From NCBI GenBank assembly GCA_015272395.1, contig JACYLQ010000036.1, positions 1 to 64,000 of the forward strand: a DNA stretch of 64,000 nucleotides, given 5' to 3'. Of the stretch, positions 1 through 64,000 are shown one piece after another. Position numbers and translations under genes: made by a program. Under the pieces are notes generated by a model. That model was not told the origin of the DNA. It saw only the letters and a program-made list of their open reading frames with translations, and ran no database searches. This DNA is from Calothrix sp. C42_A2020_038 (GTDB lineage Bacteria; Cyanobacteriota; Cyanobacteriia; Cyanobacteriales; Nostocaceae). Numbering within the stretch: position 1 is the stretch's first letter; each line of letters opens with the position of its first letter.

Positions 1-55
1 ACGAAACTTGCAATGCAAGTTGGAACCCCCTAACTTTAGTTATGGGGTAGTTCAG
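1..55 (+). mobile_element. Right end of an IS200/IS605-family (tnpB) element
   Basis: The first 55 bases match the segment at 18839-18893 that follows a tnpB remnant. Shared blocks are ACGAAACTT, TTGGAACCCCC and GGGGTAGTTCAG. A hairpin is visible: CCCC (27-30) and TAAC (31-34) pair with GTTA (39-42) and GGGG (44-47), leaving T43 as a bulge. In this family the right end carries the transposition hairpin and encodes the scaffold of the TnpB guide RNA (omega-RNA). The tnpB gene itself would lie left of the window, so I cannot tell whether the element is intact. Confidence 0.7.
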
Positions 56-183
56 ATGATTAGTAATTATCTACTGACAAGATAAAAAAGTTTAAATAAC
101 TTTGGACTTGTAGCAACTGTGGTGTACATTAAGTATTAAGTTATGTGTCAATTCTGAACGATATCACCTGATTGGAGAAAAGA

Positions 184-513
184 ATGAGTACGGGTGTAAT
201 TACTATCACTGATACTGAATTTGAAACTGAAGTTTTGAAATCTGAACAGCCCGTATTACTGTATTTTTGGGCTTCTTGGTGCGGTCCTTGTAGACTGATG
301 ACATCGACGGTAAATAATGTTGCTAGTATTTATGGTGACCGCCTTAAAATAGTCAAAATGGAAGTTGACCCCAATCCTGCTGCTGTCAAGCATTACCAAG
401 TAGAAGGTGTACCTGCTTTTAGAATAGTTCAAGACGGTAAACTTTTGGCAGCTACTGAAGGCGCCATTGGTAAAGATAAATTGTTTAGCTTTATTGATAG
501 CCATTTAAACTAA
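184..513 (+). CDS. Thioredoxin family protein
   Basis: A 109-residue thioredoxin fold that would act as a cytosolic dithiol-disulfide oxidoreductase. The active site WCGPC is canonical and sits in the usual context (FWASWCGPCR), and the cis-proline loop GVPAF is present. The length is normal for a thioredoxin. I place the start at ATG 184 because GGAG at 174-177 is a well-spaced ribosome binding site; a TTG four codons upstream is also in frame. It has its own upstream region of about 130 bases after the IS end and is followed 53 bases later by an aminotransferase on the same strand, so cotranscription is possible. Which thioredoxin class it belongs to (m, x, y or other) cannot be told by eye. 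Confidence 0.93.
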   Translation: MSTGVITITDTEFETEVLKSEQPVLLYFWASWCGPCRLMTSTVNNVASIYGDRLKIVKMEVDPNPAAVKHYQVEGVPAFRIVQDGKLLAATEGAIGKDKLFSFIDSHLN

Positions 514-566
514 TAAAGGTTCTTGACGCGCGGTCTTGGCTGTCGGGAATATCGGATTTTGAAATC

Positions 567-1775
567 ATGAAGCTACCTGAAATGCAGTTTGCCAAACGTT
601 TACAACCCCTGCAAGTCAATGTATTTGCGGATATGGACATAGCCAAGACGAAAGCTTTGGCAGCGGGGAAAGAGTTAATTGATTTGTCGCTAGGTTCCTC
701 GGACTTAGCGGCAGAATTACATGTTATTGATGCTATTACGAAATCACTAAACGACCCACTAACCCACGGTTACTTACTTTTCGGCGCCACTCAAGAATTT
801 CGGAGCGCAGTAGCGACTTGGTATGAGCGAAAGTTCAGCATTTCCATTAACCCGGAAACTGAAGTATTACCTTTGATTGGTTCACAAGAAGGAACAGCTC
901 ATTTACCTTTAGCAATTCTCAATCCTGGTGACTACGCATTGCTACTTGACCCTGGTTATCCTTCTCATGCAGGTGGGGTATATTTGGCTTCAGGATTAAT
1001 TTATCCGATGCCAATACGGGCGGAAAATGATTTTTTGCCGTTGTTTACAGATATTCCTGTGGGTGTCTTAGATAAAGCGCGCCTTATGGTGTTAAGTTAC
1101 CCACATAACCCGACTACCGCAACTGCACCTTTATCTTTTTTTGAAGAAGCAGTTGCTTTTTGTCAACAGCATAATATTGTTCTAGTTCATGATTTTCCCT
1201 ACGTTGATATAGTCTTCTTTGACCGCGAAAAAAAACTTATAACTAACTCTAGTCTTGCTCCCTCAATATTCCAAGCTGACCCAGAAAAAAGCGTCTCTAT
1301 TGAGTTCTTCACGTTATCAAAGTCCTACAACATGGGTGGTTTCCGCATTGGCTTTGCTATTGGTAACGCTGACTTAATTCGTGCGCTACGTCAGGTTAAA
1401 GCTGCCGTTGACTTTAACCAGTACCGAGGAATTTTAAACGGGGCCGTTGCTGCTTTAACCGGACCCCAAACAGGAGTTGAGACTGCTGTTGCTACTTTTA
1501 AAAGGCGCCGTGATGCTTTTGTCAGTGCCTTACAACACATTGGTTGGGATGTACGAGTACCCCAAGCCACAATGTACGTTTGGGCTAAACTACCAGCTCC
1601 TTGGAATCAAAATTCGATCGAATTTTGCACAAAATTAGTTCAAGAAACAGGTGTAGCTGCTTCACCAGGCGCAGGCTTTGGTTTGGCAGGTGAAGGTTAT
1701 GTCCGCTTTGCCCTTGTTCGTGACCCTTCAGTTTTAGAAATTGCCGTCCAAAAAATCTCAGAATTTCTGCGGTAA
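567..1775 (+). CDS. Class I/II aminotransferase, LL-diaminopimelate aminotransferase-like
   Basis: A 402-residue fold-type I PLP enzyme. The PLP-binding lysine is K252 in the motif TLSKSYNMGGFRIGF, and the cofactor-binding stretches around G105-SQEG, the SYPHNPTT segment (178-184) and the D209 region are all present, so it should be catalytically competent. The overall pattern resembles the cyanobacterial proteins annotated as LL-diaminopimelate aminotransferase, which make LL-diaminopimelate for lysine and peptidoglycan synthesis. Related enzymes act on aspartate, alanine or aromatic amino acids, so the exact substrate is inferred. It lies 53 bases after the thioredoxin gene. ATG 567 matches the usual family N-terminus; no strong ribosome binding site is visible. 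Confidence 0.85.
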   Translation: MKLPEMQFAKRLQPLQVNVFADMDIAKTKALAAGKELIDLSLGSSDLAAELHVIDAITKSLNDPLTHGYLLFGATQEFRSAVATWYERKFSISINPETEVLPLIGSQEGTAHLPLAILNPGDYALLLDPGYPSHAGGVYLASGLIYPMPIRAENDFLPLFTDIPVGVLDKARLMVLSYPHNPTTATAPLSFFEEAVAFCQQHNIVLVHDFPYVDIVFFDREKKLITNSSLAPSIFQADPEKSVSIEFFTLSKSYNMGGFRIGFAIGNADLIRALRQVKAAVDFNQYRGILNGAVAALTGPQTGVETAVATFKRRRDAFVSALQHIGWDVRVPQATMYVWAKLPAPWNQNSIEFCTKLVQETGVAASPGAGFGLAGEGYVRFALVRDPSVLEIAVQKISEFLR

Positions 1776-1972
1776 ATTTACAAATGTTTTATTAGCGGTT
1801 AATGAAAAGTTTATAAAATTTGCCTTAAATTTCAGTATTCTCAAGCTAGACTACAGAGAGAATACTGAATATTATCGTTGTATATCAAACATCAATCAAT
1901 CGTATTACTGACAATTGGTTGAAAATAATAACTATGCACTTATCGCTAGCCTTATTGGCTAGATTGAAATTT

Positions 1973-2509
1973 ATGAGCAGAAAACTGGGCAGAAGTCTAG
2001 GTATTTGTTTTGGTGTTAATGTAGTTATAATAACAGGATTGGCAAGTGTGACAATAACCCCAGCCCAAGCAACATCATTAAAAAATGTTCCATTTGAGCA
2101 AAAAGAAGAATTTAAAATACTTTTGAATCAAAATAAAGATATTTCTAATAATTTGCTCAAGCTATCCCCTAATATCAAAAATTTCTTGAGTAATAAGCAT
2201 GATAACGAAATTGAGTATCGGTTATTTCAAGAAACCCAAGATACTCTCAACGAAGTTAAACAAGCAAGTAAAGTCACCCAGGAAAATATTGATGGCAAGA
2301 CAATAGTATATTTTTATAGCCTAGAATCAACAAAACCTACAGATCAACTTAGTAATAACACAAATATTTCGGGCACTTATCAAATTCTAAGAAAGTTGCC
2401 TGCTCCTCCAGCTAGAAGAAAAGTATCTGAGCCAGCGACTGGTTTTGGAGTAGTAATATTAAGCTATTTTACTGTGCAGCATAAGCTAAAGCGAGTGGGG
2501 AAGTATTAA
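1973..2509 (+). CDS. Secreted protein of unknown function with a PEP-CTERM-like tail
   Basis: I do not recognise the family. From ATG 1973 the protein (178 residues) begins with a basic n-region, a hydrophobic stretch and a TPAQA site, which together make a typical signal peptide. In-frame starts at TTG 1919 and ATG 1934 would only lengthen the n-region. The middle is polar, rich in N, K and Q, and helical in character. The last 27 residues have the layout of a sorting tail: a SEPATGFG motif, a short hydrophobic helix and a basic end (KLKRVGKY), like a diverged PEP-CTERM/cyanoexosortase signal. No exosortase gene is in this window, so processing is an inference. No operon partner is evident. 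Confidence 0.6.
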   Translation: MSRKLGRSLGICFGVNVVIITGLASVTITPAQATSLKNVPFEQKEEFKILLNQNKDISNNLLKLSPNIKNFLSNKHDNEIEYRLFQETQDTLNEVKQASKVTQENIDGKTIVYFYSLESTKPTDQLSNNTNISGTYQILRKLPAPPARRKVSEPATGFGVVILSYFTVQHKLKRVGKY

Positions 2510-2721
2510 ATCCTAAAAAGCTGATTTTAACTTGCATTTTTGCGTAAATTTAAAATTTGAGCTAATATTGTTTAACACATATAATCATGTATAAAAATTT
2601 TTATTTATTACTTCAGACTGCATGAAATAAATCAATAAAGTTTAGAAATTCAACGAGTTTTGTGCAGTTATTTTGAGTCCAGTAGTTATCGTTGAGTTTT
2701 TACCTAATTGAATAGGGAGAA

Positions 2722-3144
2722 ATGACAGCGCAATTACTTGATACGAAACAACAGTATGAGTCTTATCCATCTAGACGCATTCTATTGATAGAAGATAACG
2801 ACATGAATAGAATGTTGCTTAGTGATTATTTAGCTTATTTTCATTATGATGTTATGGGTCTGCCAGAAGCATCAGGATTTTTCTCTACGCTTGAGCTATT
2901 TCAACCCGAATTAATCCTCTTAGACCTAAAGTTGCCGGATATTGATGGCTACTCAGTATTAAAAGCAGTAAAACAAAAGCCAAAGTATTCAGCAATACCA
3001 GTTATTGTCGTTTCAGCTTTCGCATTTAAAGCTGATCAAGATAAAGCAATGAAATTAGGTGCGAGTCGTTACTTCGTCAAACCAGTAAATCTGAATGAAT
3101 TGGTGGCAGCGATTGAAGAGGAATTGGCTCACTTTTCTAACTAA
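2722..3144 (+). CDS. Single-domain response regulator (CheY-like)
   Basis: A 140-residue receiver domain with no output domain. The phospho-acceptor is D68 in LILLDLKLPDIDG, the acidic pair is E24-D25, the switch serine is S98 (IVVSAF) and the conserved lysine is K120 (YFVKPVNL). This is complete and typical of a two-component receiver that works through protein partners. ATG 2722 follows a good GGGAGA ribosome binding site. No histidine kinase is adjacent: the KdpD-like protein downstream lacks a kinase domain. The partner is therefore unknown. The N-terminal 17 residues before the domain are unstructured in appearance. Confidence 0.92.
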   Translation: MTAQLLDTKQQYESYPSRRILLIEDNDMNRMLLSDYLAYFHYDVMGLPEASGFFSTLELFQPELILLDLKLPDIDGYSVLKAVKQKPKYSAIPVIVVSAFAFKADQDKAMKLGASRYFVKPVNLNELVAAIEEELAHFSN

Positions 3145-3179
3145 AATATTTATTATCATTCAGGTTCTCAAGCGAGTTA

Positions 3180-3359
3180 TTAATCAGCTTTTTGGTTGGT
3201 GATATAGTCCTCAACACTTTGGCTCAAACTCTGTACAGAACTGCCAATTTGGGAGATTTTTCGTTGCATCTGTGCTAGTAACAAAACTGCGGTTTGCAAT
3301 TCGTTAAGGGTTTCAGCCATTGCGTCGCGATATTGAGATTCAAATTCTTGTGCGTTCAT
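3180..3359 (-). CDS. Small conserved-looking hypothetical protein (59 aa)
   Basis: A minus-strand reading frame of 59 codons starting at ATG 3357-3359, preceded by an AAGGATG ribosome binding site. The product begins MNAQEFESQYRDAM and is highly helical and amphipathic, with regularly spaced leucines (about residues 18-30) and Q/S-rich heptads, suggesting a short coiled coil. It is convergent with the response regulator, whose stop codon lies 36 bases away. I do not recognise the family. The good ribosome binding site and the clean amphipathic pattern make it more likely real than chance, but a homology search is needed. Confidence 0.6.
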   Translation of the reverse strand: MNAQEFESQYRDAMAETLNELQTAVLLLAQMQRKISQIGSSVQSLSQSVEDYITNQKAD

Positions 3360-3992
3360 AATTGAGCATCCTTATATTCAAATTTATCTGTGGCTGTATT
3401 TAGCATAAACATTAGATACGAGCAGATAAATCCGTTGAACCGCCGAATTGCAAGGGTTTTTGTCAATTTCCGAGATATTTACTAATTAAACGATATATTC
3501 ATTTCATTTTGATAAGAAAATGTAAAAAAAAACTTATCGATTACTAAGTTACAAACAAAATTGCTCATTACAAGCCCTTGAGGAGGCGCGGAAAGTCTTT
3601 CGAGCAATCATACTTTATAAATACTGATATTAGTTTGTAAAATCTTTGACATACTATATACATAAATGTGAAGATACGTTATTCAAAGATGTTGTCTAGT
3701 GGTCTGTGTCATTAATTTTGAGGTGTTGTGGAACAGGTGTCCTCGCCTGTGCATTTTGCAGGCAGGGATGCCTGACCCACAAGATATTATTAATACCACC
3801 AAAACTCATAACACACACGACTAGTTAACTTTCATGAATTTGGGTAATTTACCTGCTGTATTTCAGTCTTTGATTTCCAAATTGTGTCAAATTTCGTAAA
3901 CTTAGAATATCTTAATATAATGTTTCTATCTTTTTGGCGGCATCAGCAAATTAGTAAGTAGATATTAAATCATATGTACTATAAAAGGAATT
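3360..3992. other. Gene-free stretch with a MITE-like insertion
   Basis: No convincing coding sequence. It holds the divergent upstream regions of the 59-residue gene and of the KdpD-like gene, and a MITE-like element at 3696-3824. The remainder is AT-rich with no recognisable RNA motif. Confidence 0.6.
3696..3824. mobile_element. MITE-like element with terminal inverted repeats (copy 1)
   Basis: The left end TGGTCTGTGTCATTAATTTT recurs at 8697. The right end is an imperfect reverse complement (about 16 of 21 bases) and both ends are flanked by CTAG, compatible with a TA target duplication as made by IS630/Tc1-type transposases. No transposase is encoded. Two small hairpins lie inside: ACAGG/CCTGT at 3733-3750 and CAGGC/GCCTG at 3759-3774; the latter belongs to the palindrome family seen elsewhere in the window. 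Confidence 0.65.
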
Positions 3993-5117
3993 ATGTATTA
4001 TTCCTCGTCTTTCTCCTCTTCTGGTCAGTCGCACATTGGTTCAAGCCGACGTGGGAAGCATAAAATTTTTATTGGAATGGCGCCTGGTGTTGGCAAAACT
4101 TACAAAATGCTTGAAGAAGCGCATCAAATGAAGGCAGAGGGTATTGATGTTGTGATTGGTTTTCTGGAAACCCACGGACGTAAAGAGACAGCAGAAAAAG
4201 CTGTTGGGCTTGAAGTAGTTAAGAGAAAAGCTATTGTTTACCAGAACGTAACTTTAGAAGAGTTTGATACTGATGCGGTTTTAAAGCGCTGTCCGCAACT
4301 TGTTTTAGTGGACGAACTTGCTCATACTAATGTTCCTGGTTCGGTACGCGAAAAGCGCTACCAAGATGTCGAAGTGATTTTACAGGCAGGAATTGATGTT
4401 TACTCAACTGTGAATATTCAGCACTTAGAAAGCTTAAATGATTTAGTAGCAAGAATTACAGGTATTATTGTTCGCGAACGTATTCCCGACCGCTTGCTCG
4501 ACGAAGCGGATGAAGTTGTAGTGATAGATGTAACACCAGAAACTTTGGAAGAACGGTTGCGCGAAGGTAAAATTTACAGGCTTGAAAAAATTGAGCAATC
4601 GTTAGAGAATTTTTTCCAGCGACGCAATTTGATTGCATTGCGCGAACTGGCTTTACGGGAAGTTGCAGATACTGTCGAAGATGAAGGAAATTCTTCCAAC
4701 TTCAAGGGACAAAGTTGTCATATTCACGAACGAGTTTTAGTTTGTGTTTCGACGTATCCAAATTCGATACAGTTGCTGCGTCGTGGCGCCAGAATTGCAA
4801 GCTATATGAATGCTCCTTTATATGCAGTATTTGTTGCAGACTCCGACCGCTTTTTAAGCAAGCAAGAAAGTCTACATGTTGAAACTTGCGAAAAGCTATG
4901 TAAAGAATTCGGTGGTGAATTTTTAAGAATAACGAGTTTTAATATTCCCGAAGAAATTGCGAAAATCGCATCTGAACTTCATATTACCCAAATAGTTATC
5001 GGTGAAAGTCAAAAATTAGGATGGAAACGCTTTTTCAAGAGGTCTTTCACACAGCGATTAATGGAATTAATACGACACCAAAATATAGATTTACATATTA
5101 TTGCAACCGAAAACTAA
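3993..5117 (+). CDS. kdpD: Truncated KdpD: N-terminal KdpD domain plus Usp-like domain, no kinase
   Basis: A 374-residue cytosolic protein. Residues about 20-230 are the KdpD N-terminal domain, with Walker A GMAPGVGKT (28-36) and the DELAH motif (107-111). Residues about 245-370 resemble a universal-stress-protein domain (HERVLVCVSTYPNS, then VIGESQKLGWKRFF). The four membrane helices and the histidine kinase of full KdpD are absent. Short KdpDs of this design are known in cyanobacteria, for example Anabaena. Full KdpD senses K+ and turgor and drives kdpFABC through KdpE; neither kdpFABC nor kdpE is in this window, so the target is unknown. ATG 3993 fits the family start. Confidence 0.9.
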   Translation: MYYSSSFSSSGQSHIGSSRRGKHKIFIGMAPGVGKTYKMLEEAHQMKAEGIDVVIGFLETHGRKETAEKAVGLEVVKRKAIVYQNVTLEEFDTDAVLKRCPQLVLVDELAHTNVPGSVREKRYQDVEVILQAGIDVYSTVNIQHLESLNDLVARITGIIVRERIPDRLLDEADEVVVIDVTPETLEERLREGKIYRLEKIEQSLENFFQRRNLIALRELALREVADTVEDEGNSSNFKGQSCHIHERVLVCVSTYPNSIQLLRRGARIASYMNAPLYAVFVADSDRFLSKQESLHVETCEKLCKEFGGEFLRITSFNIPEEIAKIASELHITQIVIGESQKLGWKRFFKRSFTQRLMELIRHQNIDLHIIATEN

Positions 5118-5136
5118 TATATATATAAAGAATCGG

Positions 5137-5154
5137 GCGGGCAGGGATGCCCGC
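5137..5154. repeat. Palindromic repeat GCGGGC-AGGGAT-GCCCGC
   Basis: Perfect 6-bp inverted repeat with a 6-base loop, followed by CCACAAG. It lies between the convergent kdpD and chlN genes, where it could also act as a bidirectional terminator. Related copies occur at 3759, 15773, 17426, 25515, 60972 (half) and 63034. Confidence 0.7.
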
Positions 5155-5170
5155 TCCACAAGACGTTTAG

Positions 5171-6589
<1,419 letters not shown>

Positions 6590-8849: not shown

Positions 8850-9107
8850 CTAGGCTGTTTCTTCACCCGTGCGGATATCTTCCAAAGTTTGCCAACCAGG
8901 ATGCCACAACTCACGGTCTTGTAGTATTGTCGCGTTTATCCAAAAGCGAACATTTGGATCACAAGATGACACCATTTCTGCATAAACCCATTTTCCCTGG
9001 TTTTTGCGGTTAACTACTTCAAAATGGCGCCAACCATCAACTTTTTTCTGTGCTGTCCACTTGGAACCAAGTAAATACGGAAATTTTTGCTTTTTTGATT
9101 TAGGCAT
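8850..9107 (-). CDS. TIGR02450 family tryptophan-rich small protein
   Basis: An 85-residue protein with the pattern KWTAQKKVDGWRHFEVV and further tryptophans at WVYAEM, FWIN, LWHPGW. This is the signature of the short, Trp-rich TIGR02450 family (DUF2389), found in cyanobacteria and other bacteria and without known function. The N-terminus is basic (MPKSKKQKFPYLLG). A perfect 7-bp inverted repeat (TTGACTC-AAAAA-GAGTCAA, 9121-9139) sits 14 bases upstream of the start codon and could form a leader hairpin or operator. No operon partner is apparent. Confidence 0.85.
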   Translation of the reverse strand: MPKSKKQKFPYLLGSKWTAQKKVDGWRHFEVVNRKNQGKWVYAEMVSSCDPNVRFWINATILQDRELWHPGWQTLEDIRTGEETA

Positions 9108-9120
9108 AAATACTTAAAAC

Positions 9121-10377: not shown

Positions 10378-11365
10378 CAGGAACATGAGGACGGAATTCG
10401 ACGATATCGCGTTTGATGGTGATATCGTAGTTTCCGAAAAAGTCATGTCCTAAAAGTCCAGTTTCAAGTTCTTCCCCTGCGATCGCTACAGGAATTTGGC
10501 TGACTTTGACTTCTCCAACTTCCATTGAGTTTACATAACCAATGGGAAAAGTAACAGCTTTGGAACTGGCAGTATTGGCTTTTGCTTTACCTACAGGTAT
10601 AACCGAGAGGGCTTCTGCCATTTTTGGAGTAATAACAGTACCACTGGCGCCTGTATCAACTATCATTTCAAAAAATTGGTTGCTGTTGAATTTGACCTCG
10701 ATAACAGGTGTACCTCCGATCCTGCGCTTGATTGGAACTGTAATTACCTCTTCCTGAATTTGTTTGTTGATAACAACAGATTCAGGTTCAAAGATATTGG
10801 TCTTGGGTTCCTCAATTTGAGGCTGTTTCTTAGGTTCGCGTGCAAAAACGGGAGCGATAATTTTGGATGATTTAGGAGAAACTACTGTTTGAGGTGTAGT
10901 CACAATTTCAGGAACAACTACTATAACTTGAGTTGCTTGAGGTTGTGGAGTTGGTTTAACTTGAGAGGGAACAGCTTTAATTTGTGCTTGTTTGAGTCTT
11001 TGCTGGTACTCAGCAATTTTATTTTGTGCAATTGAATAATAGGGGCTATCACGCTGAACTTGTTTCATCAGAGCAATTGCATCTTGATATTGCCCTGCTA
11101 CTAGAGTCCAATCCGCAGAAGATTGAGCAGATTGACTTATACTAAATGCACCAGCTGCTTTATCCAAACCCAACTCAAATGTATTTGGTTGATTTGTACT
11201 TGCAGAGATCGACTCCGATGTTGAAGTTGCAGCAACCGTTTGATTGGAAGTCTCTGTCTGAACAGACATTGAAGTAGGTTGCCTTTCTGTTTTGGTTTGA
11301 TGTTTGTCACAACTAGTAGTCAGAACTGCTAGCGTAACTAATATCAGATAGCACGAGTTACGCAT
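10322..11365 (-). CDS. Retropepsin-like aspartyl protease lipoprotein
   Basis: A 347-residue protein. The N-terminus is a lipoprotein signal (hydrophobic stretch then LTTSC, with C19 as the lipidated cysteine). A polar linker and a TPR-like helical pair (about 70-115, [19 protein letters not shown]) follow, then a P/Q/V-rich spacer. Residues about 215-325 form a single-domain aspartyl protease: the catalytic motif [12 protein letters not shown] and the downstream [12 protein letters not shown], in the order expected for TIGR02281/gag-asp families. It should sit on the periplasmic side of a membrane and act as a dimer. Substrate is unknown. The gene end overlaps trpD by 56 bases. Confidence 0.88.
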
Positions 11366-11598: not shown

Positions 11599-11636
11599 GA
11601 AAATCCTAACCTCACCCAATACTTATCTTGCAGCAT

Positions 11637-13261: not shown

Positions 13262-13287
13262 TTACATGTAGTAGACAAGCTACAATT

Positions 13288-30525: not shown

Positions 30526-32412
30526 ATGGCTCAGTACTTGCTTGACACCATTTGGTTGGTGCCATGCTATGCCCTTCTTGGCGGGCTTATAGCATTATTT
30601 TGGTCGCCTGGGGTAAATCGTCTCACCGGACCAAGACCAGCTGGTTATGCGAACATGATAATGACATTCACGGCATTTATTCACAGTGCCTTGTCACTAT
30701 TCGCAATTTGGAACCATCCAGCAATAGAGATATTCATTCCTTGGTTTTCAACTGCCGGTTTAAATGTATCTATAGATATAGAAGTAACAGCTGCTAACGT
30801 TGCTGCGATGACTGTAATCTGTGGGCTGAATTTTCTAGCACAGATTTATGCTATCGGCTATATGGAAATGGACTGGGGTTGGGGACGTTTCTTTTCGTTG
30901 TTAGGTCTATTTGAAGGGGGATTATGCTGTTTAACTCTTTCTAATAGTCTTTTTTGCAGTTATGTGATATTGGAGATACTAACGCTAGGAACTTATTTAT
31001 TAGTAGGGTTATGGTTTAGCCAACCTTTAGTAGTAACGGGAGCGCGCGATGCATTCCTGACAAAACGGATAGGTGATTTAGTTTTGTTGATGGGTGTGTT
31101 GGCAATATATCCATTAGCAGGAAGTTGGAATTATACAGACTTAGCGGAATGGTCAAAAACTGCGAATATAAACCCCACATTAATATCTCTAGTTTGTTTA
31201 GCGTTAATCGCAGGTCCAATGGGTAAGTGCGCCCAGTTTCCACTCCACTTGTGGTTGGATGAGGCAATGGAAGGTCCTATACCAAGTACAATCTTACGGA
31301 ACTCGGTAGTTGTTGCAAGTGGCGCCTGGGTTCTGATCGAGTTGCAACCAGTATTTAGCTTATCTTCGTTTGTGTCTTCCGCAATGGTAATAATTGGTTC
31401 TTTAACAGCAGTTGGAGCTTCACTTATTGCCATAGCACAAATAGATGTTAAGCGCTGCCAGTCTTACTCAGTAAGCGCTTACATGGGCTTGGTATTTATC
31501 GCTGTCGGAACTCAGCAAGACGAAGCAGCATTATTGCTAGTGCTTAGTCATGCTCTAGCAGCTGCGTTACTAGTAATGTCCACAGGTGGAATTGTTTGGA
31601 ACAGCATTACTCAAGATATCACTCAACTCGGTGGCTTATGGTCACGCCGTCCAATCTCAGGTTTAGCTTTTATAATAGGTGCGCTTGGATTGATTGGATT
31701 CCCACCATTAGGAAGTTTTTGGGCATTGCTCAAACTAGCAGATGCACTTTGGACAACAAACCCAGTTTTAGTAGGAGTTATTATTGCAGTCAATGCATTA
31801 ACTGCATTTAGCTTAACTCGCGAGTTTGGGTTAATTTGGGGTGGTAAAGCCAAGCAAATGAGCCAACGTTCTCCAGAAGTTTTCTGGCCTATGACACTAC
31901 CAATGGTAATTCTTGTTGGATTTGTATTACACCTACCATTGATACTGCAAAGCTTATCTTTACTACCTGCTTGGGCTGTACTAAATAAAGATGTGGCTCT
32001 TTTACTAGTTTGGTCGAGTATTTTCGGTTGCAGCATTGCTGCCGTAATATACTTAGGAGATTTTATTCCCAAACCTGTCAAACTTCCTTTCAAGTCTTTA
32101 CAAAACTTGTTAGCTTATGATTTTTACACTCCCAAACTATACCGTATGAGCATCGTTTTGAGTGTTGATTTAATCTCAAAACTTGCCGATATTGTTGACC
32201 GCTTTGTTGTTGATGGTATCGTTAACTTATTTGGTTTAGTTTCCCTTGGTGGTGGTGAAGGACTCAAATACAGTAACTCTGGACAAACACAATTCTACGC
32301 ATTAACTGTTTTGCTAGGAGTTAGTTTATTGGGCGCCTTTGTAACCTGGCAATTTTGGGGAGATGAATTTATGCATTTGATGTCTGCTTCAGTATCTTTG
32401 CTTCCTCAATAA
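30526..32412 (+). CDS. ndhF3: NAD(P)H-quinone oxidoreductase subunit NdhF, CO2-uptake type
   Basis: A 628-residue antiporter-like membrane subunit with about 15-16 helices. The conserved core is ILTLGTYLLVGLWFSQPLVVTGARDAFLTKRIGDLVLLMG, with GPMGKCAQFPLHLWLDEAMEGP (the key lysine and proline kink). Specialised NDH-1MS complexes with such a subunit drive CO2 hydration to bicarbonate in the carbon-concentrating mechanism. The immediate neighbours ndhD and a CO2 hydration protein identify it as the F3/D3/CupA or F4/D4/CupB set. The contiguous three-gene order and the 440-residue Cup favour F3/D3/CupA, but the paralog number is an inference. Confidence 0.88.
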   Translation: MAQYLLDTIWLVPCYALLGGLIALFWSPGVNRLTGPRPAGYANMIMTFTAFIHSALSLFAIWNHPAIEIFIPWFSTAGLNVSIDIEVTAANVAAMTVICGLNFLAQIYAIGYMEMDWGWGRFFSLLGLFEGGLCCLTLSNSLFCSYVILEILTLGTYLLVGLWFSQPLVVTGARDAFLTKRIGDLVLLMGVLAIYPLAGSWNYTDLAEWSKTANINPTLISLVCLALIAGPMGKCAQFPLHLWLDEAMEGPIPSTILRNSVVVASGAWVLIELQPVFSLSSFVSSAMVIIGSLTAVGASLIAIAQIDVKRCQSYSVSAYMGLVFIAVGTQQDEAALLLVLSHALAAALLVMSTGGIVWNSITQDITQLGGLWSRRPISGLAFIIGALGLIGFPPLGSFWALLKLADALWTTNPVLVGVIIAVNALTAFSLTREFGLIWGGKAKQMSQRSPEVFWPMTLPMVILVGFVLHLPLILQSLSLLPAWAVLNKDVALLLVWSSIFGCSIAAVIYLGDFIPKPVKLPFKSLQNLLAYDFYTPKLYRMSIVLSVDLISKLADIVDRFVVDGIVNLFGLVSLGGGEGLKYSNSGQTQFYALTVLLGVSLLGAFVTWQFWGDEFMHLMSASVSLLPQ

Positions 32413-32535: not shown

Positions 32536-34029
32536 ATGTTAAGTGTTTTAATCTGGGCGCCGATATTAGGTGCGTTAATAGTCGCGTTACTACCTCAAAA
32601 ACTTCCTGCAGGTAATATCCGGTTTATCAGTTTGTTCATTGCAGGATTAGTTTTTCTTTGGAACTTGTTTATTTTACTCAAATTTAGTACAACAAATACA
32701 GGAATTCAGTTTGCGGAGTATCTACCTTGGAATGAAACTCTTGGTTTGAATTACCAATTGGGAGTGGATGGGTTATCTATCCCAATGTTGTTGTTAAACA
32801 GTTTCCTAACCTGGATTGCGATTTATAGTAGTAGTAAACAAGTAGAACGTCCAAGACTTTTTTATTCGCTGATTCTGATGGTTAGTGGTGGTGTTGCAGG
32901 AGCTTTTGCAGCACAAAACTTACTGTTATTTTTCTTGTTTTACGAATTTGAATTAATACCTTTTTACCTATTAATTTCAATTTGGGGTGGTCAAAGACGA
33001 GCTTACGCAGGAATTAAGTTTTTAATTTACACTGCTGTTTCAGGAGCTTTAATTTTGGCAACGTTCTTAGGAACAGTATGGTTAACAGGTACAAGCTTCG
33101 CAATGAATACTATTTCGGTTCAGTCGTTGTCAACTGGGCTACAGCTTTTGCTTTTGGTTGGAATTGTACTGGGCTTTGGTATCAAAATACCTTTGGTACC
33201 TTTCCATACTTGGCTTCCTGATGCCTACGTTGAAGCATCGGCACCCGTAGCTATTCTGCTTGGTGGAGTCTTAGCAAAACTTGGAACTTATGGTTTACTC
33301 CGGTTCGGTCTAGCAATGTTCCCTTCAGCATGGAGTATTATTGCTCCAACTTTAGCAATTTGGGGTGCAGGTAGTGCAATTTACGGAACTGTAACTGCTA
33401 TTGCTCAAAAAGATATTAAGCGCATGGTCGCGTATAGTTCGGTTGGGCATATGGGTTACATTTTAGTGGCTGCTGCCGCTAGTACACCTCTAGCACTTGT
33501 TGGCGCCGTTGCCCAAATGATAAGTCATGGTTTAATACTGGCAATGCTTTTCCACTTAGTAGGATTAATTGAAGTCAAAGTTGGCACGCGCGAGCTTGAT
33601 AAACTTAATGGTTTGATGAGTCCAATTCGAGGTTTACCATTAACAAGCGCACTTTTAGTACTCGGTGGTATGGCAAGCGCTGGTATTCCAGGAATGACAG
33701 GTTTTATAGCGGAGTTTATCGTTTTCCAAGGTAGTTTTTCCGTCTTTCCTATCTCAACACTACTGTGTGTCGTTGCTACAGGTTTAACCGCAGTATATTT
33801 TGTAATTTTGCTCAACCGTACCTGCTTTGGCAAATTAGATAACAAAGAAGCATATTATCCCCGCACGTTGTGGTCAGAAAAAATTCCTGGTTTAATTTTG
33901 GCCGGTTTAATCATATTTTTGGGTATTCAACCGAACTACTTGGTACGTTGGAGTGAACCAACCACTACAGCAATGGTAGCTGCAATTCCACCTTTAGAAA
34001 AGGTATCTCCACAACTAGCTATGAAATAA
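32536..34029 (+). CDS. ndhD3: NAD(P)H-quinone oxidoreductase subunit NdhD, CO2-uptake type
   Basis: A 497-residue antiporter-like subunit of NDH-1 with about 14 helices. Family motifs are FFLFYEFELIPFYLLISIWGG, then KIPLVPFHTWLPDAYVEASAPVAILL (quinone-oxidoreductase subunit 4 signature) and the loop DIKRMVAYSSVGHMGYIL with the conserved lysine. It forms the membrane proton-pumping arm module together with NdhF of the same operon and carries the Cup protein. ATG 32536 lies 123 bases after ndhF, the gap being filled by heptamer repeats. D3 versus D4 identity is inferred from the gene order. Confidence 0.9.
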   Translation: MLSVLIWAPILGALIVALLPQKLPAGNIRFISLFIAGLVFLWNLFILLKFSTTNTGIQFAEYLPWNETLGLNYQLGVDGLSIPMLLLNSFLTWIAIYSSSKQVERPRLFYSLILMVSGGVAGAFAAQNLLLFFLFYEFELIPFYLLISIWGGQRRAYAGIKFLIYTAVSGALILATFLGTVWLTGTSFAMNTISVQSLSTGLQLLLLVGIVLGFGIKIPLVPFHTWLPDAYVEASAPVAILLGGVLAKLGTYGLLRFGLAMFPSAWSIIAPTLAIWGAGSAIYGTVTAIAQKDIKRMVAYSSVGHMGYILVAAAASTPLALVGAVAQMISHGLILAMLFHLVGLIEVKVGTRELDKLNGLMSPIRGLPLTSALLVLGGMASAGIPGMTGFIAEFIVFQGSFSVFPISTLLCVVATGLTAVYFVILLNRTCFGKLDNKEAYYPRTLWSEKIPGLILAGLIIFLGIQPNYLVRWSEPTTTAMVAAIPPLEKVSPQLAMK

Positions 34030-34086: not shown

Positions 34087-35409
34087 ATGGTATTAACTCC
34101 TGAAAAACAAGCTACTAAACTACCACCTTCGACTCATGAGTTTGCTGATATAATTCATCGCTTAGAAGCAGGTGGTTCGATGCTACCGGATACGCCGGAA
34201 AATTTAATGCAAATTATTGGTATATACAAAGCTTATGCTGTACCAATGGATTTTTACTGGCGTGACCTACTTTATATTGCAGAACAAGTATTTTTAGACC
34301 CATTTCCGTTTTTTAAATATTTTATTTCCGATGAATACTTACAGCGTCATAATCATTATGCTGGGGATGATGCTGATTTAAGAATTTGGCGTGGACCTGC
34401 AACCGCACACCCTGAACTTTTAGAGTTCATGGAAAAAGGTGAGACTATAAAAATGCCGAAGCTCATCCATCACCTTTTACACGACCGGGTAAATATGGAG
34501 TTTGCCGAAGCTTGTATGCGCGCGATGTTATGGCATCGTCACATGTACGCACCTGTCAACCAATTCGATGCTTACTTAGACTCGGATGAGTATCGTGCGA
34601 ATGCTGACCGTGCAATCAAAGCCTACTTTAAACGCAATCCATTAATGCTGGGACTATATAAATTATTCCCAGATATGTTCATCGAACAGTGCCGCCAAAT
34701 GTCATATTACGCTAACCTCGGTTTATTCTGGGAAGTTATGGCGCCTGTCTTCTTTGAAATGTCAGATATTTACGACGAAGGTGGTTTCAAAGGTGTACCT
34801 GATGCAATGAATTTCTTAGTTAATGGTATTTTTGCCATTGCTGGGCGCCCAATTTACCATCATGTTTACATCGATGGTGAATGCTACGAAGTCATTCCCA
34901 AATCAAAAGGTTTCACCTGGCTATACGAAGCTGCACTTCCTTATGTTGAAGCAGTTTTCTACCGTACAGCACCATTCCGTGGTACTAAATCATACAATGC
35001 TCAAGCTGGACAAGTACCCGATGACCAAAAGGATTTTCACTATGGCATCCTCTACGCTGACGTATTCCCAGTTGGAACCGCAGGTATCCCACCAACATTA
35101 TTAATGCAAGATATGTTGCATTTCTTACCAAAATATCTTCGCGATTATTACCTTCAACATTGCCGTGGTGAAGAAGATATGTTAATTCAATTAGGTATTT
35201 CTTTCCAACGGTCAATGTATAACGTTACCTCCGCAGTTATTCAAGCACTGCGAACTGCCTTACTTTACCCATTAGACGACCCCAACCCCAAACATTTACA
35301 AGCAAACCGCGAATTCTTTGAAATGCAACTCAACCGCTTTTGTCGTCCTGAATATGGAATGCGTGATGCCGCGCGGTTACGTCAAATTCAAAGTCAAGAT
35401 TATCGTTAA
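34087..35409 (+). CDS. cupA: CO2 hydration protein (CupA/ChpY family)
   Basis: A 440-residue soluble-looking protein of the ChpXY family. The long conserved stretches IIHRLEAGGSMLPDTPENLMQIIGIYKAYAVPMDFYWRDLLYIAEQVFL and EAALPYVEAVFYRTAPFRGTKSYNAQAGQ are diagnostic in position and order (given here only in part). CupA/CupB sit on the NdhF/NdhD arm and catalyse the NDH-driven hydration of CO2 to bicarbonate with a zinc site. About 440 residues is closer to CupA (about 440) than to CupB (about 385), as I recall. No cupS gene follows. A strong hairpin (35434-35464) ends the operon. Confidence 0.88.
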   Translation: MVLTPEKQATKLPPSTHEFADIIHRLEAGGSMLPDTPENLMQIIGIYKAYAVPMDFYWRDLLYIAEQVFLDPFPFFKYFISDEYLQRHNHYAGDDADLRIWRGPATAHPELLEFMEKGETIKMPKLIHHLLHDRVNMEFAEACMRAMLWHRHMYAPVNQFDAYLDSDEYRANADRAIKAYFKRNPLMLGLYKLFPDMFIEQCRQMSYYANLGLFWEVMAPVFFEMSDIYDEGGFKGVPDAMNFLVNGIFAIAGRPIYHHVYIDGECYEVIPKSKGFTWLYEAALPYVEAVFYRTAPFRGTKSYNAQAGQVPDDQKDFHYGILYADVFPVGTAGIPPTLLMQDMLHFLPKYLRDYYLQHCRGEEDMLIQLGISFQRSMYNVTSAVIQALRTALLYPLDDPNPKHLQANREFFEMQLNRFCRPEYGMRDAARLRQIQSQDYR

Positions 35410-41586: not shown

Positions 41587-42819
41587 ATGATGAGTATTGT
41601 TAAGTGGTGTGTTAATGGCAATGGTAAGCAGCGTTACTTTGCGGCATTGATGGTTTTGAGTTTAGCGGTAACGATGTTTTTTTCTTTACCAACTACCGCA
41701 CAAATGGCTTCTCGCTTACCGAATAGCGAATTACGGGGAGTGTGGCTAACTAATATAGATAGCAATGTGCTGTTTGAAAAGCAACGCTTAAATGATGCTT
41801 TACAGCGTCTTAAAGAATTAAATTTTAATATAGTTTATCCAACGGTGTGGAACTGGGGTTGGACTTTGTATCCAAGTAAAGTTGCCCAAAGAGTTATCGG
41901 ACGCAACCTTGACCCTGAACCAGGATTACAAGGACGAGATATGCTGAAAGAGGTAGTAGAATCTGGACACGCAAAAGGTCTAAAGGTAATACCCTGGTTT
42001 GAGTTTGGATTTATGGCGCCTGCTGACTCACAATTAGCTAAACGACATCCGACTTGGCTTACTAGTCGCAGTGACGGAACCAAAATTGTCAAAGAAGGCA
42101 CCCATGACCGAGTATGGTTAAATCCATTTCGTCCTGATGTCCAACAGTTCATGCTAGATTTAATCGTAGAAATAGTTAAAAACTATGATATAGATGGTAT
42201 TCAATTTGACGACCATTTTGGTTTACCCTCAGAACTTGGGTATGATTCCTATACTGTAGCGTTATATCAGAAAGAGAATCGCGGTAAGTTACCTCCAAAA
42301 AATCCTCAAGACCCAGAATGGTTACGTTGGCGTACCAATAAAATTACAAACTACATGAAGCGGGTATTTACTGCGATCAAAGCTGCCAAAAAAAATTGCT
42401 TAGTTTCAGTATCGCCAAATCCACAACGGTTTTCCTATGACTTTTTCTTAGCAGACTGGCAACGTTGGGAACGAATGGGACTCATTGAAGAGCTTGTCCT
42501 GCAAATATATCGCAATGATTTGAAAGTATTTAACAGCGAATTAGACCGTCCAGAAGTAAAAACCGCGCGAAGCCATATCCCCGTTAGCGTAGGTATCATT
42601 AGTGGTTTGAAGAATAAATATGTTCCGATGCAACAGATTCAAACACAAGTGCAAAATGCGCGCGAACGTAAATTTGCAGGTGTCTCATTCTTCTTCTACG
42701 AAACCCTATGGAATATGAGTAACGAACCAATACAGCAGCGTCAAGCAAGTTTAAAAAGCATGTTTCCAACACCAGCAACATACCCAAATTTACTACAAGG
42801 GTGGAAAGGCAGTAGATAA
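41587..42819 (+). CDS. Family 10-like glycosidase (GHL10/UPF0748)
   Basis: A 410-residue secreted protein. The N-terminus has a hydrophobic signal (YFAALMVLSLAVTMFFSLPTTAQ), then a TIM-barrel domain opening with LRGVWLTNIDSNVLF and the motif NFNIVYPTVWNWGWTLYPS. The acidic catalytic candidates lie in VIPWFEFGFMAP and YDIDGIQFDDHFGLP; GISFFFYETLWN closes the barrel. The GHL10 family is predicted to cleave glycans, and some members act on peptidoglycan or cyanobacterial sheath material. The substrate is not known. The signal length suggests export to the periplasm or surface. A terminator-like hairpin (42854-42880) follows. Confidence 0.9.
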   Translation: MMSIVKWCVNGNGKQRYFAALMVLSLAVTMFFSLPTTAQMASRLPNSELRGVWLTNIDSNVLFEKQRLNDALQRLKELNFNIVYPTVWNWGWTLYPSKVAQRVIGRNLDPEPGLQGRDMLKEVVESGHAKGLKVIPWFEFGFMAPADSQLAKRHPTWLTSRSDGTKIVKEGTHDRVWLNPFRPDVQQFMLDLIVEIVKNYDIDGIQFDDHFGLPSELGYDSYTVALYQKENRGKLPPKNPQDPEWLRWRTNKITNYMKRVFTAIKAAKKNCLVSVSPNPQRFSYDFFLADWQRWERMGLIEELVLQIYRNDLKVFNSELDRPEVKTARSHIPVSVGIISGLKNKYVPMQQIQTQVQNARERKFAGVSFFFYETLWNMSNEPIQQRQASLKSMFPTPATYPNLLQGWKGSR

Positions 42820-43918: not shown

Positions 43919-44386
43919 ATGGTAACGACATCTGGTAGTGGGCAAGTAGTTGCATCGTGGCAACAGGTATTGGCGCCGCATGGTCTTGGTTATAGAATCA
44001 AACTGCTTTCGCAACTTTTAACGCGGAAGTTCACCGAAAAGTTGGAACCTTACGGACTCACTCCTTTCCATTGGTTAGTACTATGTTGTTTATGGCAGGA
44101 AGATGGTTTGCCAACTTCTTGCATTGGGGATAAGTTACAACAGGTTGGTGGGACTTTGACAGGTGTACTTGACCGAATGGAAGAGCGTGGTTTAGTTCGG
44201 CGGGAACGCGATCCAAAAGACCGTCGCATCTGGCGCATTTGGTTAACTGATGCAGGAAGGGAGTTTGAAACGATTTTACCTCCTATAGGAGTTGAGCTAC
44301 GCGAGCAAGCAATGCAAGGTATTTCTCCTGATGAACGCGAGATTTTTTCACAAATACTCAATAAAGCCATAGCAAATCTATCTTAG
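43919..44386 (+). CDS. MarR family transcriptional regulator
   Basis: A 155-residue winged-helix repressor. The N-terminal dimerisation helix (GYRIKLLSQLLTRKFTEKLEPYGLT) precedes the wHTH core with PTSCIGDKLQQVGGTLTGVLDRMEERGLVRRERDPKDRRIWRIWLTDAG (in part), where RERDPKDRR is the characteristic MarR wing. ATG 43919 is the start. It is followed about 200 bases later by two MFS efflux genes on the same strand. By analogy with emrRAB-like loci it probably represses them and itself; the duplicated AATATTACGTAT motif supports that. Confidence 0.92.
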   Translation: MVTTSGSGQVVASWQQVLAPHGLGYRIKLLSQLLTRKFTEKLEPYGLTPFHWLVLCCLWQEDGLPTSCIGDKLQQVGGTLTGVLDRMEERGLVRRERDPKDRRIWRIWLTDAGREFETILPPIGVELREQAMQGISPDEREIFSQILNKAIANLS

Positions 44387-45894: not shown

Positions 45895-47472
45895 GTGGCG
45901 AATATTAGTGTAGTAAAAAAAACTAATTCTCCTTCGCAAGTACCACTACTAACTTGGATTGGTGTATTTGCGAGTATACTGGGGGCGTTCATGGCGGCAT
46001 TGGATATTCAAATAACAAACGCATCGCTGCAAGAAATTCAACTGTCTTTAGCAGTTTCTTCAGATGAAGTTTCTTGGATATCTACATCATATTTAGTTGC
46101 CGAAATTATTGTGATTCCCCTATCTGGGTGGTTATCGCACGTCTTTACACTGCGTAGATATTTATTAGTTAATACCGCTTTATTTATTTTCTTCTCAGTA
46201 TGTTGTACTTGGGCATGGGATTTAAACTCCATGATACTATTTCGCACGCTACAAGGCTTGGCTGGAGGAGTTTTAATTCCTAGTGCGATGACAATTGTAC
46301 TGATAAGTTTACCTAGCGCCAAACAACCAATTGGGCTAGCTGCGTTTGGTATAAGCATTGTATTGGCGCCTTCGATTGCTACCATATTAGGAGGTTGGTT
46401 AACTGAAAATTTGAGTTGGCACTATAATTTTTATATTAATCTGATTCCAGGCGCCTTAATATTTGCTGGTATTTGGTATGGAATTTATCAGCAAAAACCT
46501 CAGTATCATTTATTGCAACAATGTGATTGGTTGGGAATTGCCTCGATGATAATTGGTCTAGGTTTTTTACAAGTTCTGTTAGAAGAAGTAACTCATCAAA
46601 AAAACTTTAGTTCACAGATAATTGTTCGTTTCAGCGTAGTTGCGATTATATTAGTATTATTTTTTGCAATTGAATTAAAGCGAAAAAAGCCATTTATAAA
46701 CCTACGATTATTAAAAGAGCGAAACTTTGGTTTAGCAAGTATTATCAATTTTTACATTGGTTTTAGTTTATACGGTTCAATATATATTTTACCTTTATAC
46801 CTGACCCAAATTCAGAACTATAATGTATTACAAATTGGTCAAATATTAATTTGGGCAGGTATCCCACAACTATTTACTATTCCACTTATTCCTAAGATAA
46901 CCCGGTATATCGATGCACGTTTCCTAGTTGCCTTTGGAATAGCTCTATTTTCAATCAGCACTTTCATGAACGCTCGGTTTACTTATCAAACTGGATACGA
47001 CCAATTAATTTGGTCGCAAGTTGTTCAAGGTATAGGCAAACCATTGATTATGGCGCCATTAGCATCAATTGCAACAGTAGGTTTACCGCCAAAAAATGCA
47101 GATTCAAGTAGCAGTATATTTAATGTGATGCTTAATTTAGGTAGCTTAATTGGAGTTACTGCAATGGCAAGTTTATTCACAACTCGTGAACAATTCCACC
47201 TGTATCAGCTTGATAATTCTATGTCACTACATAATCTAGAAACCGAATCTAGAATCAATCAACTTACACAGTATTTTTACAATCGCGGTTTTGATTTAAG
47301 TACAGCCCAAGAACAAGCTCTTAAATCAATTAATAACATAGTTCATCGTGAAGCCTCTATAATGGCTTTTAATGATTGTTTTTATGTTATTGGTATTGGG
47401 TTGTTAGTTAGTTGTATAGCTGTTTTATTCTTTAAGAAAGTTAAAATCACAGGAACTAGCATTGGGTATTAG
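45895..47472 (+). CDS. DHA2 family MFS efflux permease (EmrB/QacA type)
   Basis: A 525-residue, 14-helix drug:H+ antiporter. Landmarks are LGAFMAALDIQITNASLQEIQ (motif D1, with the conserved aspartate), SYLVAEIIVIPLSGWLSHVFTLRR (motif A) and FRTLQGLAGGVLIPSAMTIVL (motif B), plus AFGISIVLAPSIATILGGWLTENLSWHYNFYINLIPG (motif C). The start is GTG 45895 with an AAGGAG ribosome binding site at good spacing. In emrAB-type systems it works with a membrane-fusion protein; none is in this window. It lies behind marR and another MFS gene, so inducible efflux of toxic compounds is likely. Confidence 0.93.
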   Translation: MANISVVKKTNSPSQVPLLTWIGVFASILGAFMAALDIQITNASLQEIQLSLAVSSDEVSWISTSYLVAEIIVIPLSGWLSHVFTLRRYLLVNTALFIFFSVCCTWAWDLNSMILFRTLQGLAGGVLIPSAMTIVLISLPSAKQPIGLAAFGISIVLAPSIATILGGWLTENLSWHYNFYINLIPGALIFAGIWYGIYQQKPQYHLLQQCDWLGIASMIIGLGFLQVLLEEVTHQKNFSSQIIVRFSVVAIILVLFFAIELKRKKPFINLRLLKERNFGLASIINFYIGFSLYGSIYILPLYLTQIQNYNVLQIGQILIWAGIPQLFTIPLIPKITRYIDARFLVAFGIALFSISTFMNARFTYQTGYDQLIWSQVVQGIGKPLIMAPLASIATVGLPPKNADSSSSIFNVMLNLGSLIGVTAMASLFTTREQFHLYQLDNSMSLHNLETESRINQLTQYFYNRGFDLSTAQEQALKSINNIVHREASIMAFNDCFYVIGIGLLVSCIAVLFFKKVKITGTSIGY

Positions 47473-52028: not shown

Positions 52029-52045
52029 CTATGTAGCAATTTTTT

Positions 52046-62869: not shown

Positions 62870-62877
62870 TTGTCAAT

Positions 62878-62912
62878 ATTCCCGACTTTTGCAAAAGTCG
62901 GGAATCTAACGG
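62878..62912 (+). terminator. Terminator after the LEA-like pair
   Basis: ATTCCCGACTTTT pairs with AAAAGTCGGGAAT (62878-62905), a 13-bp perfect stem, just after the stop codon. There is a CTAACGG spacer and then CTTTTTCTT. Strong intrinsic terminator. Confidence 0.85.
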
Positions 62913-63033
62913 CTTTTTCTTGGTGAAATACTCCCACCTTCCCCCAACTTAACATTACTGCATAGCAGGTTTTCGATTCGGCTCAACCCAAAAGAGTTAA
63001 TTAAATTAAATTTCTCTGCTTTGGTTAAATGAA

Positions 63034-63047
63034 CAGGCAGGGTGCCT
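63034..63047. repeat. Degraded palindrome CAGGCAGGGTGCCTAT
   Basis: Diverged copy of the AGGCAGGGATGCCT family, between the LEA-like pair and the BcsA-like gene. Confidence 0.45.
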
Positions 63048-63062
63048 ATTCAACATTGATAA

Positions 63063-64000
63063 TTAAACTTTTGCAACTGCTAATGGACTGATGTCAATAT
63101 TTCTGTCAAAAAATATACGCGGTTTTAGAAGTATTCTGAATATTAGTAAGAGTGACTGAAATTCTCCTGGTGTTTTGTTACGTTTCCATTGTCCAGGACG
63201 ACAAAATAACATTTTTACAAGGCGCCGATGTTGTGTCAAGCCAACTGATGTATATCTAACTCGTATAGTTCGGTATTCATTGTTAAGCCCAGTCTGAACG
63301 ATTTCAGCATCTAGTTGCAAATTATCTTCTGCAATTTCTAGATGTACAGGAGTATTTTGGATTAAATCGATTGGTGAATTTTGAGTTAAAGCAATTTCTG
63401 CACCTGCTTCTGAAATAATTGTTGTAACACCCCACAAAGTTTTGTCACCGATATCTAACTTGACTACCCGTCGCAAATCAAACCATTCGTAAACATCTGG
63501 TTTGGGTGCGTCCAAAAGAATTAACAAAGCAATACCAATCATGATGAGGTTATATGTACTCCATAGCCAACCTAAACCAATTCCCCTGATCTTATCGGCA
63601 GTATCTGATGAAGTTGTTACCCATTCGTTGTGTATCATACACATGCCTAAATTACGCCACAAACTCACAGCCGTAGCAATAAATAAAATAATTAAAGGTA
63701 AAGCTAATTTCCAATTAAAGGTGTAACTATTTTTAACCGTACCTTTGGGTGTAACTTTAAAGCCTTTGGAAAAAGGATTAAACATCACCTGAATTACCGT
63801 TAATGCTAAGGGAAAACACAATACCAAAGAGTAAATATCTGAAAGTAAAGCTGAACGGGCGTGATTGTTTAACCAAGCAAAAACTGCTAAATTTACTAAA
63901 TAATAAGGTAAGAAAAAATACATTAATTCTGCTGGAGTCGCTCGTATTGGTATGACACCTAGAAATGAGTAAAGTAAAGGCATGATTAGGAAATAAACGC
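63063..64000 (-). CDS. BcsA-like glycan synthase, C-terminal part (partial at window end)
   Basis: At least 312 residues; the frame is open through 64000, so the N-terminal catalytic domain lies outside. The visible part has four or more transmembrane helices (SFLGVIPIRATPAELMYFFLPYYLVNLAVFAW, then LALPLIILFIATAVSLW, GWLWSTYNLIMIGIALLILLD). A PilZ-like domain follows (about 165-260, EWFDLRRVVKLDIGDKTLWGVTTIISEAGAEIALT), which in BcsA binds cyclic-di-GMP. The SFLGVIPI start matches the end of the BcsA core. Cellulose or another beta-glycan would be made and exported. The product cannot be told from this part alone. Confidence 0.85.
   Translation of the reverse strand, partial: VYFLIMPLLYSFLGVIPIRATPAELMYFFLPYYLVNLAVFAWLNNHARSALLSDIYSLVLCFPLALTVIQVMFNPFSKGFKVTPKGTVKNSYTFNWKLALPLIILFIATAVSLWRNLGMCMIHNEWVTTSSDTADKIRGIGLGWLWSTYNLIMIGIALLILLDAPKPDVYEWFDLRRVVKLDIGDKTLWGVTTIISEAGAEIALTQNSPIDLIQNTPVHLEIAEDNLQLDAEIVQTGLNNEYRTIRVRYTSVGLTQHRRLVKMLFCRPGQWKRNKTPGEFQSLLLIFRILLKPRIFFDRNIDISPLAVAKV

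Follow-up and report, generated by a model that had tools for sequence, protein, structure and literature searches.

The reason why cyanobacteria repeat the highly iterated palindrome HIP1 has been sought since the 1990s. The question returns in another form in Calothrix sp. C42_A2020_038, where positions 1-64,000 of contig JACYLQ010000036.1 (the window) hold the hexamer GGCGCC many times and the HIP1 octamer GCGATCGC once. What is GGCGCC doing there, and what keeps it in place? The initial annotation of the window had proposed that GGCGCC stands in place of HIP1, perhaps together with a solitary methyltransferase. The idea of GGCGCC as a HIP with a methyltransferase is already published for one strain (Elhai 2015, PMC4390886): passages of that paper describe this hexamer as an alternate HIP in Calothrix PCC 7103, with 19 kb of Calothrix D253 in addition, and link it to GrCGyC methyltransferases. 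A literature search over titles and abstract openings gave no other report of GGCGCC as an iterated palindrome. We analysed the window, the genome to which it belongs (G000) and 217 genomes of the family, of which seven, G000 included, belong to the genus g1 and 210 lie outside it. We conclude that GGCGCC most likely replaced HIP1 in the common ancestor of the genus and that its sites are maintained. With moderate confidence, we explain it as an alternate HIP kept as the target of an orphan methyltransferase.

GGCGCC in place of HIP1

460 to 63221 (site starts), unstranded: GGCGCC, 78 sites distributed along the window; the widest gap between sites is about 2.9 kb (16010-18905)
10479..10486, unstranded: HIP1 octamer GCGATCGC, the sole copy in the window by motif count
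31866..31873, unstranded: ancestral HIP1 position; GCGATCGC in 4/4 aligned outgroups, ACGTTCTC in G000, HIP1 in 0/7 genomes of g1

The window has a GC content of 38.75%. Its 78 GGCGCC sites agree with the roughly 77 first counted by eye; the mononucleotide expectation in 64 kb is 3.4. A maximal-order Markov model, which is fed by the motif's own sub-words, expects 40.1. When the motif was masked and both strands of a 244-kb sample of G000 were counted (the window plus nine 20-kb stretches), 570 copies were found versus 33.7, 21.5 and 15.7 expected at orders 1, 2 and 3, respectively. The complete genome of 6,532,080 bases has 7,475 copies, one per 874 bases, whereas about 376 are expected from the mononucleotide composition of the sample. 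The enrichment is about 20-fold, and a genome-wide frequency at expectation, named earlier as one of two outcomes that would speak against the idea, was not found.

Open reading frames (ORFs) were called simply (ATG start, at least 100 amino acids; n=180) and cover 77% of the 244-kb sample. The sites lie mainly inside genes, as first noticed, with 1,333/Mb inside ORFs versus 600/Mb outside, and are read in several frames (125 codon-aligned, 52 and 75 in the remaining two). Codon usage (the other such outcome) or base composition as the source of the excess is virtually excluded: 125 of the 252 coding copies are codon-aligned, but 50 synonymous shuffles that preserve proteins and codon usage yield 17.8±3.5 copies, GGCGCC is present in the other frames and in non-coding DNA too, and the reversed control hexamer CCGCGG has 2 copies in the whole genome. 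The shuffles, together with a codon-matched Gly-Ala control given below, bear out the proposal that the drive is on the DNA and not on a protein motif.

GGCGCC density exceeds that of chromosome samples on two plasmid-sized contigs, C3 of G063 (L363-L367; 3,010/Mb) and C10 of G061 (L373-L377; 2,320/Mb). The small contigs C2 of G063 (1,200/Mb) and C2 of G065 (1,440/Mb) are not above the chromosome samples.

The excess extends over the whole genus. All seven genomes of g1 hold 7,475-20,380 GGCGCC, which corresponds, with rounded genome sizes, to 1,144/Mb in G000 and 1,511-1,711/Mb in the six congeners. None of the 210 other family genomes is above 111/Mb; the largest count among them, 1,053, comes from a genome with a control count of 1,270. 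HIP1 shows the opposite distribution. It has 31-163 copies per genome in g1 (37-75 for its reversed control) and, in G000, 147 versus 37 for the control. The single copy reported for the window was found at its position. Most other genomes of the family have thousands of HIP1 copies; G182 (30), G194 (535), G191 (574) and G184 (990) are low, and none of these four is GGCGCC-rich. We considered G194 as a further alternate-HIP genome and rejected it: in 92 kb, no palindrome was among the 16 top hexamers and HIP1 was still the top palindromic octamer (observed/expected ratio, O/E, 21.9; 7 sites), with 535 copies in 10.7 Mb. GATC is very low in the same 92 kb (O/E 0.07). A residue of HIP1 above expectation is left in g1, with an O/E of 8 in G000 (7 sites in 244 kb) and of 17 in the G061 sample.

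Twenty HIP1 positions of four outgroup genomes, belonging to four genera, could be aligned to the window, and four of them are common to all four outgroups. HIP1 was retained at these 20 positions in none of the g1 genomes, where aligned. HIP1 was therefore most likely present in the ancestor and lost in g1. In-place conversion of HIP1 to GGCGCC was rejected as the main route, with 17 of the 20 positions lacking an overlapping GGCGCC site. The other three do overlap one, which is more than the 1.9% that density alone predicts (binomial P=0.0065, from small numbers), and it is possible that some old HIP1 positions were reused. Taken together, GGCGCC does stand in place of HIP1, as first suggested, and the clade-wide extent of the replacement is new here. 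According to passages of PMC4390886, exceptional HIPs are sporadic and do not occur in clades; with seven of seven genomes GGCGCC-rich, this does not hold for GGCGCC.

Site maintenance and a second palindrome

31321..31326, unstranded: GGCGCC, in 6/6 aligned congeners; outgroups GGTGCC, GGTGCA, GGTGCT, GGTGCA
32332..32337, unstranded: GGCGCC, in 6/6 aligned congeners and 0/4 aligned outgroups
33502..33507, unstranded: GGCGCC, in 6/6 aligned congeners; outgroups GGTGCG, GGTGCA, GGTGCA, GGCGCT; overlaps an outgroup HIP1 (33505)
34740..34745, unstranded: GGCGCC, in 6/6 aligned congeners and 0/4 aligned outgroups
34844..34849, unstranded: GGCGCC, in 6/6 aligned congeners; outgroups GTCGTC, GTCGTC, GCCGTC, GTCGTC
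42015..42020, unstranded: GGCGCC, in 6/6 aligned congeners and 0/1 aligned outgroup
43972..43977, unstranded: GGCGCC, in 6/6 aligned congeners and 0/1 aligned outgroup
46365..46370, unstranded: GGCGCC in G000 and 0/6 aligned congeners; lineage-specific gain, or loss in the others
527 to 59434 (site starts), unstranded: CGCGCG, 30 sites, second iterated palindrome of the window; three pairs overlap

Alignments of the congeners cover 17-37 kb of the window, with an identity of 80-82%. GGCGCC was kept in 195 of 247 genome-by-site comparisons, whereas other all-GC hexamers were kept in 128 of 373; the per-genome p-values range from 0.016 to 2e-9, for comparisons that share ancestry and are not independent. 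Where a Gly-Ala pair was conserved as Gly-Ala, the GGCGCC coding was kept in 79 of 90 cases and other codings in 44 of 144. Occupancy was scored at positions that are aligned in all seven g1 genomes and have at least one copy: 58% of 40 GGCGCC positions are occupied in six or seven genomes, versus 12% of 71 control positions. The outgroups hold GGCGCC at the sites of G000 in 0 of 47 comparisons and often have GGTGCN there. We conclude that GGCGCC sites are maintained over evolution. Sites are also gained and lost: 23 positions have GGCGCC in at least three congeners and miss it in G000, and therefore turnover is real. In the species tree, built from 12,128 aligned columns, G000 is the first branch within g1 and G063 the next. 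A one-step change of GGCGCC gives nine kinds of neighbour. Compared with the outgroup G028, G000 has a lower O/E for five of them, much the same O/E for one and a higher O/E for three (GGTGCC, GACGCC and GGGGCC).

Copies of the second palindrome, CGCGCG, number 3,399 in G000 and between 3,257 and 8,759 in its six congeners. Elsewhere among the 217 genomes the count is at most 552, apart from G084 (4,254, with a control count of 4,241). The reversed control GCGCGC is also raised in g1 (2,000-5,583), and 47% of the bases flanking GCGCGC in our own sample belong to overlapping CGCGCG. In samples of five g1 genomes the O/E of CGCGCG, with masking at order 1, ranges from 6.7 to 12.6, compared with 0.37 in G028, and G000 has 120 coding copies versus 16.9±4.7 in synonymous shuffles. 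The hybrid GGCGCG shows no enrichment, with an O/E of 0.70-1.10 across five genomes of g1. Several one-step neighbours of CGCGCG (AGCGCG, TGCGCG and CGTGCG) are enriched. Retention of CGCGCG is at the control level (31 of 88 comparisons), though it reaches 10 of 13 in G063. CGCGCG may be a less strict target, or else an older mark in decay. As an iterated palindrome it gave only unrelated papers in the literature search, and the string does not occur in the main text of Elhai 2015 (PMC4390886).

A conserved methyltransferase gene and its probable specificity

C32, 50744-51721 (outside the window): core methyltransferase gene of G000, PF00145 E=1.8e-66

The PF00145 profile for C5-cytosine methyltransferases matches nine times in G000 and 89 times in the genus. 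One sequence group, L003, is present in all seven g1 genomes. In five of them the group also includes paralogues of about 56-63% identity; in G000 and G060 it is represented by one gene. The core copies of the six congeners are 80-90% identical to that of G000 and form one clade with it (support 1.0). The dN/dS of 0.10-0.17 in eight pairs points to purifying selection. In the G000 protein the catalytic motifs PCQ, ENV, QSRKR and GNAVP are visible. The neighbourhood of the core copy is conserved in six of the seven genomes, with an mtnW-like gene (a call below the NCBIfam cut-off) and an S-layer-type gene (called by eye, with no NCBIfam match).

No HindVP-like nuclease was detected by tblastn within about 1.5 kb of the core copies in any of the seven genomes, and PF09519 gave no match in these genomes, nor in any control genome. 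The core methyltransferase is thus apparently an orphan, at least with regard to nucleases of the HindVP type. As for other enzymes, the L006 type was rejected as the determinant of GGCGCC, being present in 172 of the 217 family genomes (E<=1e-30). No methyltransferase for CGCGCG was found; the L003, L006 and L195 types, all present in 7/7 genomes, could not be assigned to it.

HindVP recognises GRCGYC. Outside g1, we found 50 near-full homologues of the core enzyme at 57-73% identity, four of them with an in-frame stop. The flanks of 43 of the 50 were read. Of these 43 loci, 29 have an adjoining full HindVP-like nuclease, four have partial matches (at least one of these at a truncated locus) and ten have none, where the nuclease was assigned by Pfam (PF09519) on two loci and on the remainder by tblastn to three of the nucleases. 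Genomes with the nuclease have medians of 0.66/Mb for GGCGCC and 0.76/Mb for GACGTC, whereas the ten genomes without it have 13.9 and 10.95, respectively (p=3e-4 for GGCGCC and 5e-5 for GACGTC, among phylogenetically related genomes). The pooled test of homologue presence against the counts (n=50 vs 160) gave p=0.0018 for GGCGCC and 1e-6 for GACGTC, with phylogeny uncorrected, and is weaker than the nuclease contrast. Since the nuclease-bearing genomes avoid these sites, they provide independent support for GRCGYC. The specificity of the core methyltransferase, as judged by its nuclease partners and the site avoidance, would accordingly be GRCGYC, which contains GGCGCC and is wider, and the orphan enzyme probably reads GGCGCC. 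The earlier suggestion of a solitary methyltransferase thus holds in that a gene without a detected nuclease is present in all seven genomes; the GGCGCC specificity attached to it is not fully supported, the predicted GRCGYC being wider. At two loci, L109 (Calothrix elsteri CCALA 953) and L110 (a Calothrix metagenome-assembled genome, MAG), the HindVP-type restriction-modification pair lies near an ORF that by eye looks MutS-like.

Among known systems, GGCGCC agrees best with the alternate HIPs. The features that Elhai (2015) gives for these, in passages of the paper, are a density of roughly 1,000-2,000/Mb, low HIP1 and an encoded methyltransferase covering the palindrome. The first two were found, and the gene is present in 7/7 genomes with a putative specificity of GRCGYC. 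As in Calothrix PCC 7103, the same palindrome occurs at about one site per kb together with nearly absent HIP1 and a GrCGyC-type methyltransferase; G061 is probably this strain, with HIP1 at 14/Mb in both. Unlike PMC4390886, whose passages treat one genome plus fragments, we cover seven genomes of the genus, and two of these (G000 and G060) carry just one such gene. In the paper, a second GrCGyC methyltransferase is named as possibly critical; with one such gene in G000, a second copy is not required. The other alternate HIPs named there, rCCGGy, GCsGC and GGGATCCC, likewise come with low HIP1 and a matching putative methyltransferase, but they differ in sequence and are described in the passages from single genomes or pairs.

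The classical HIP1, with its GATC- and CGATCG-methyltransferases, is also a GC-rich palindrome at about one per kb in coding DNA with solitary methyltransferases. The sequence is a different one, however, and HIP1 itself is rare in G000 apart from its residue: the octamer is not highly over-represented, with one copy in the window and 147 in the genome. The gene agrees with an orphan C5 methyltransferase in having PF00145 with intact motifs and no detected cognate nuclease. With HindVP-type restriction-modification, which pairs a PF09519 nuclease with a C5 methyltransferase, the genus shares a homologous methyltransferase. Unlike such Type II systems, g1 has no detected nuclease (PF09519, 7 genomes) and its site is enriched about 20-fold instead of avoided.

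Explanations and meaning

We propose that GGCGCC took the place of HIP1 in the ancestor from which this Calothrix-type genus descends, and that it has been retained since. Its sites would be the targets of a solitary C5-cytosine methyltransferase, a homologue of the HindVP-type (GRCGYC) partner without its nuclease. The methylated GGCGCC may be favoured site by site, either since it steers repair, as in the methyl-GC-directed mismatch-repair ratchet modelled in passages of PMC4390886, or since the methylated site itself is selected. The excess, the replacement of HIP1, the site maintenance and the conserved gene without a detected nuclease are directly supported. From these we infer the specificity and the activity of the enzyme and a link between methylation and maintenance. 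A further step is tentative: an orphaned restriction-modification methyltransferase may have made its own site a heritable, maintained genome-wide mark that replaced HIP1, and CGCGCG could be what is left of an earlier mark, or of a looser one, in a succession of palindromes.

Several observations weigh against the proposed explanation. The central CpG decays in 35 of 366 GGCGCC copies, and in 428 of 4800 at other CpGs. This equals the background CpG rate and leaves no mutational footprint of methylation; we had considered such a 5-methylcytosine footprint, as 24 of 31 single-step deviations from a majority GGCGCC are central CpG transitions, and rejected it because other CpGs decay equally. 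GACGCC, GGCGTC and GACGTC, which also lie within GRCGYC, are rare in g1. The ten homologues without a nuclease match among the 43 outside g1 occur in genomes with at most 42.6 GGCGCC/Mb, so an orphan enzyme alone is not sufficient, and the genomes behind the nuclease contrast are related to each other. Further cytosine-type methyltransferases, of the L006 type and the L195 type (the latter judged by length and score alone), are present in all seven g1 genomes. In G062 the analysed copy is located elsewhere in the genome and two of its motif positions are changed; from fragments at the ends of contigs, a syntenic copy may exist in split form. Gene tree and species tree disagree: in the former, G000 pairs with G063 and the G062 copy branches first, so descent need not have been strictly vertical. 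Finally, GGCGCC is spaced more regularly in G000 than at random (coefficient of variation 0.81 vs 0.98±0.05), as is HIP1 in the outgroup (0.84 vs 1.00±0.07), and in the other g1 genomes the regularity is less clear or absent. The regular spacing gives weak support to a saturation effect.

GGCGCC might instead be selected for a DNA function independent of methylation, such as binding, recombination or replicon maintenance, with the methyltransferase being incidental. We regard this as possible but unlikely. The data show maintenance and not its agent, and the small contigs are equally rich or richer in GGCGCC (1,200, 1,440, 2,320 and 3,010/Mb). However, the methyltransferase, present in 7/7 genomes, is the sole protein found here with a putatively matching specificity, where no search for other GGCGCC-binders was made, and passages of PMC4390886 report a putative cognate methyltransferase in all cyanobacterial genomes with such sequences. 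A bias of mutation or gene conversion toward GGCGCC, without function or methylation, is still less probable. The five one-step neighbour kinds that are lower in G000 than in G028 look as if they had been drawn into GGCGCC, but a gain bias alone leaves old sites unkept, whereas the occupancy is far above that of the controls. A bias of this kind, confined to a single palindrome within a single genus, is not known to us.

The window and the sample have some other features.
52045-52368 (+): tRNA-Arg(CCT) gene split by an intron of group I (52070-52323, Rfam RF00028), detected solely with ARAGORN allowing introns
30526-35406 (+): apparent NDH-1 cluster for CO2 uptake, with two NDH-1 subunits of the proton-antiporter type and, after them, a ChpXY CO2-hydration gene
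The palindromes TTCGAA, TGCGCA, GTGCAC, GCATGC, GTCGAC, CGTACG, CCCGGG and ACCGGT have no copy in the 244-kb sample, and GATC is at 0.40 of its expectation there, which perhaps reflects a further restriction history.

Our results add to the published case the genus-wide extent of GGCGCC, its maintenance at the level of sites, a conserved methyltransferase that has a putative specificity and for which no nuclease was detected, and a second palindrome. They weaken two arguments in print: that exceptional HIPs do not last within clades, and that a second copy of the methyltransferase was possibly critical. A swap that spans a genus, with living outgroups, one shared gene and measurable retention, makes the HIP question experimentally answerable.

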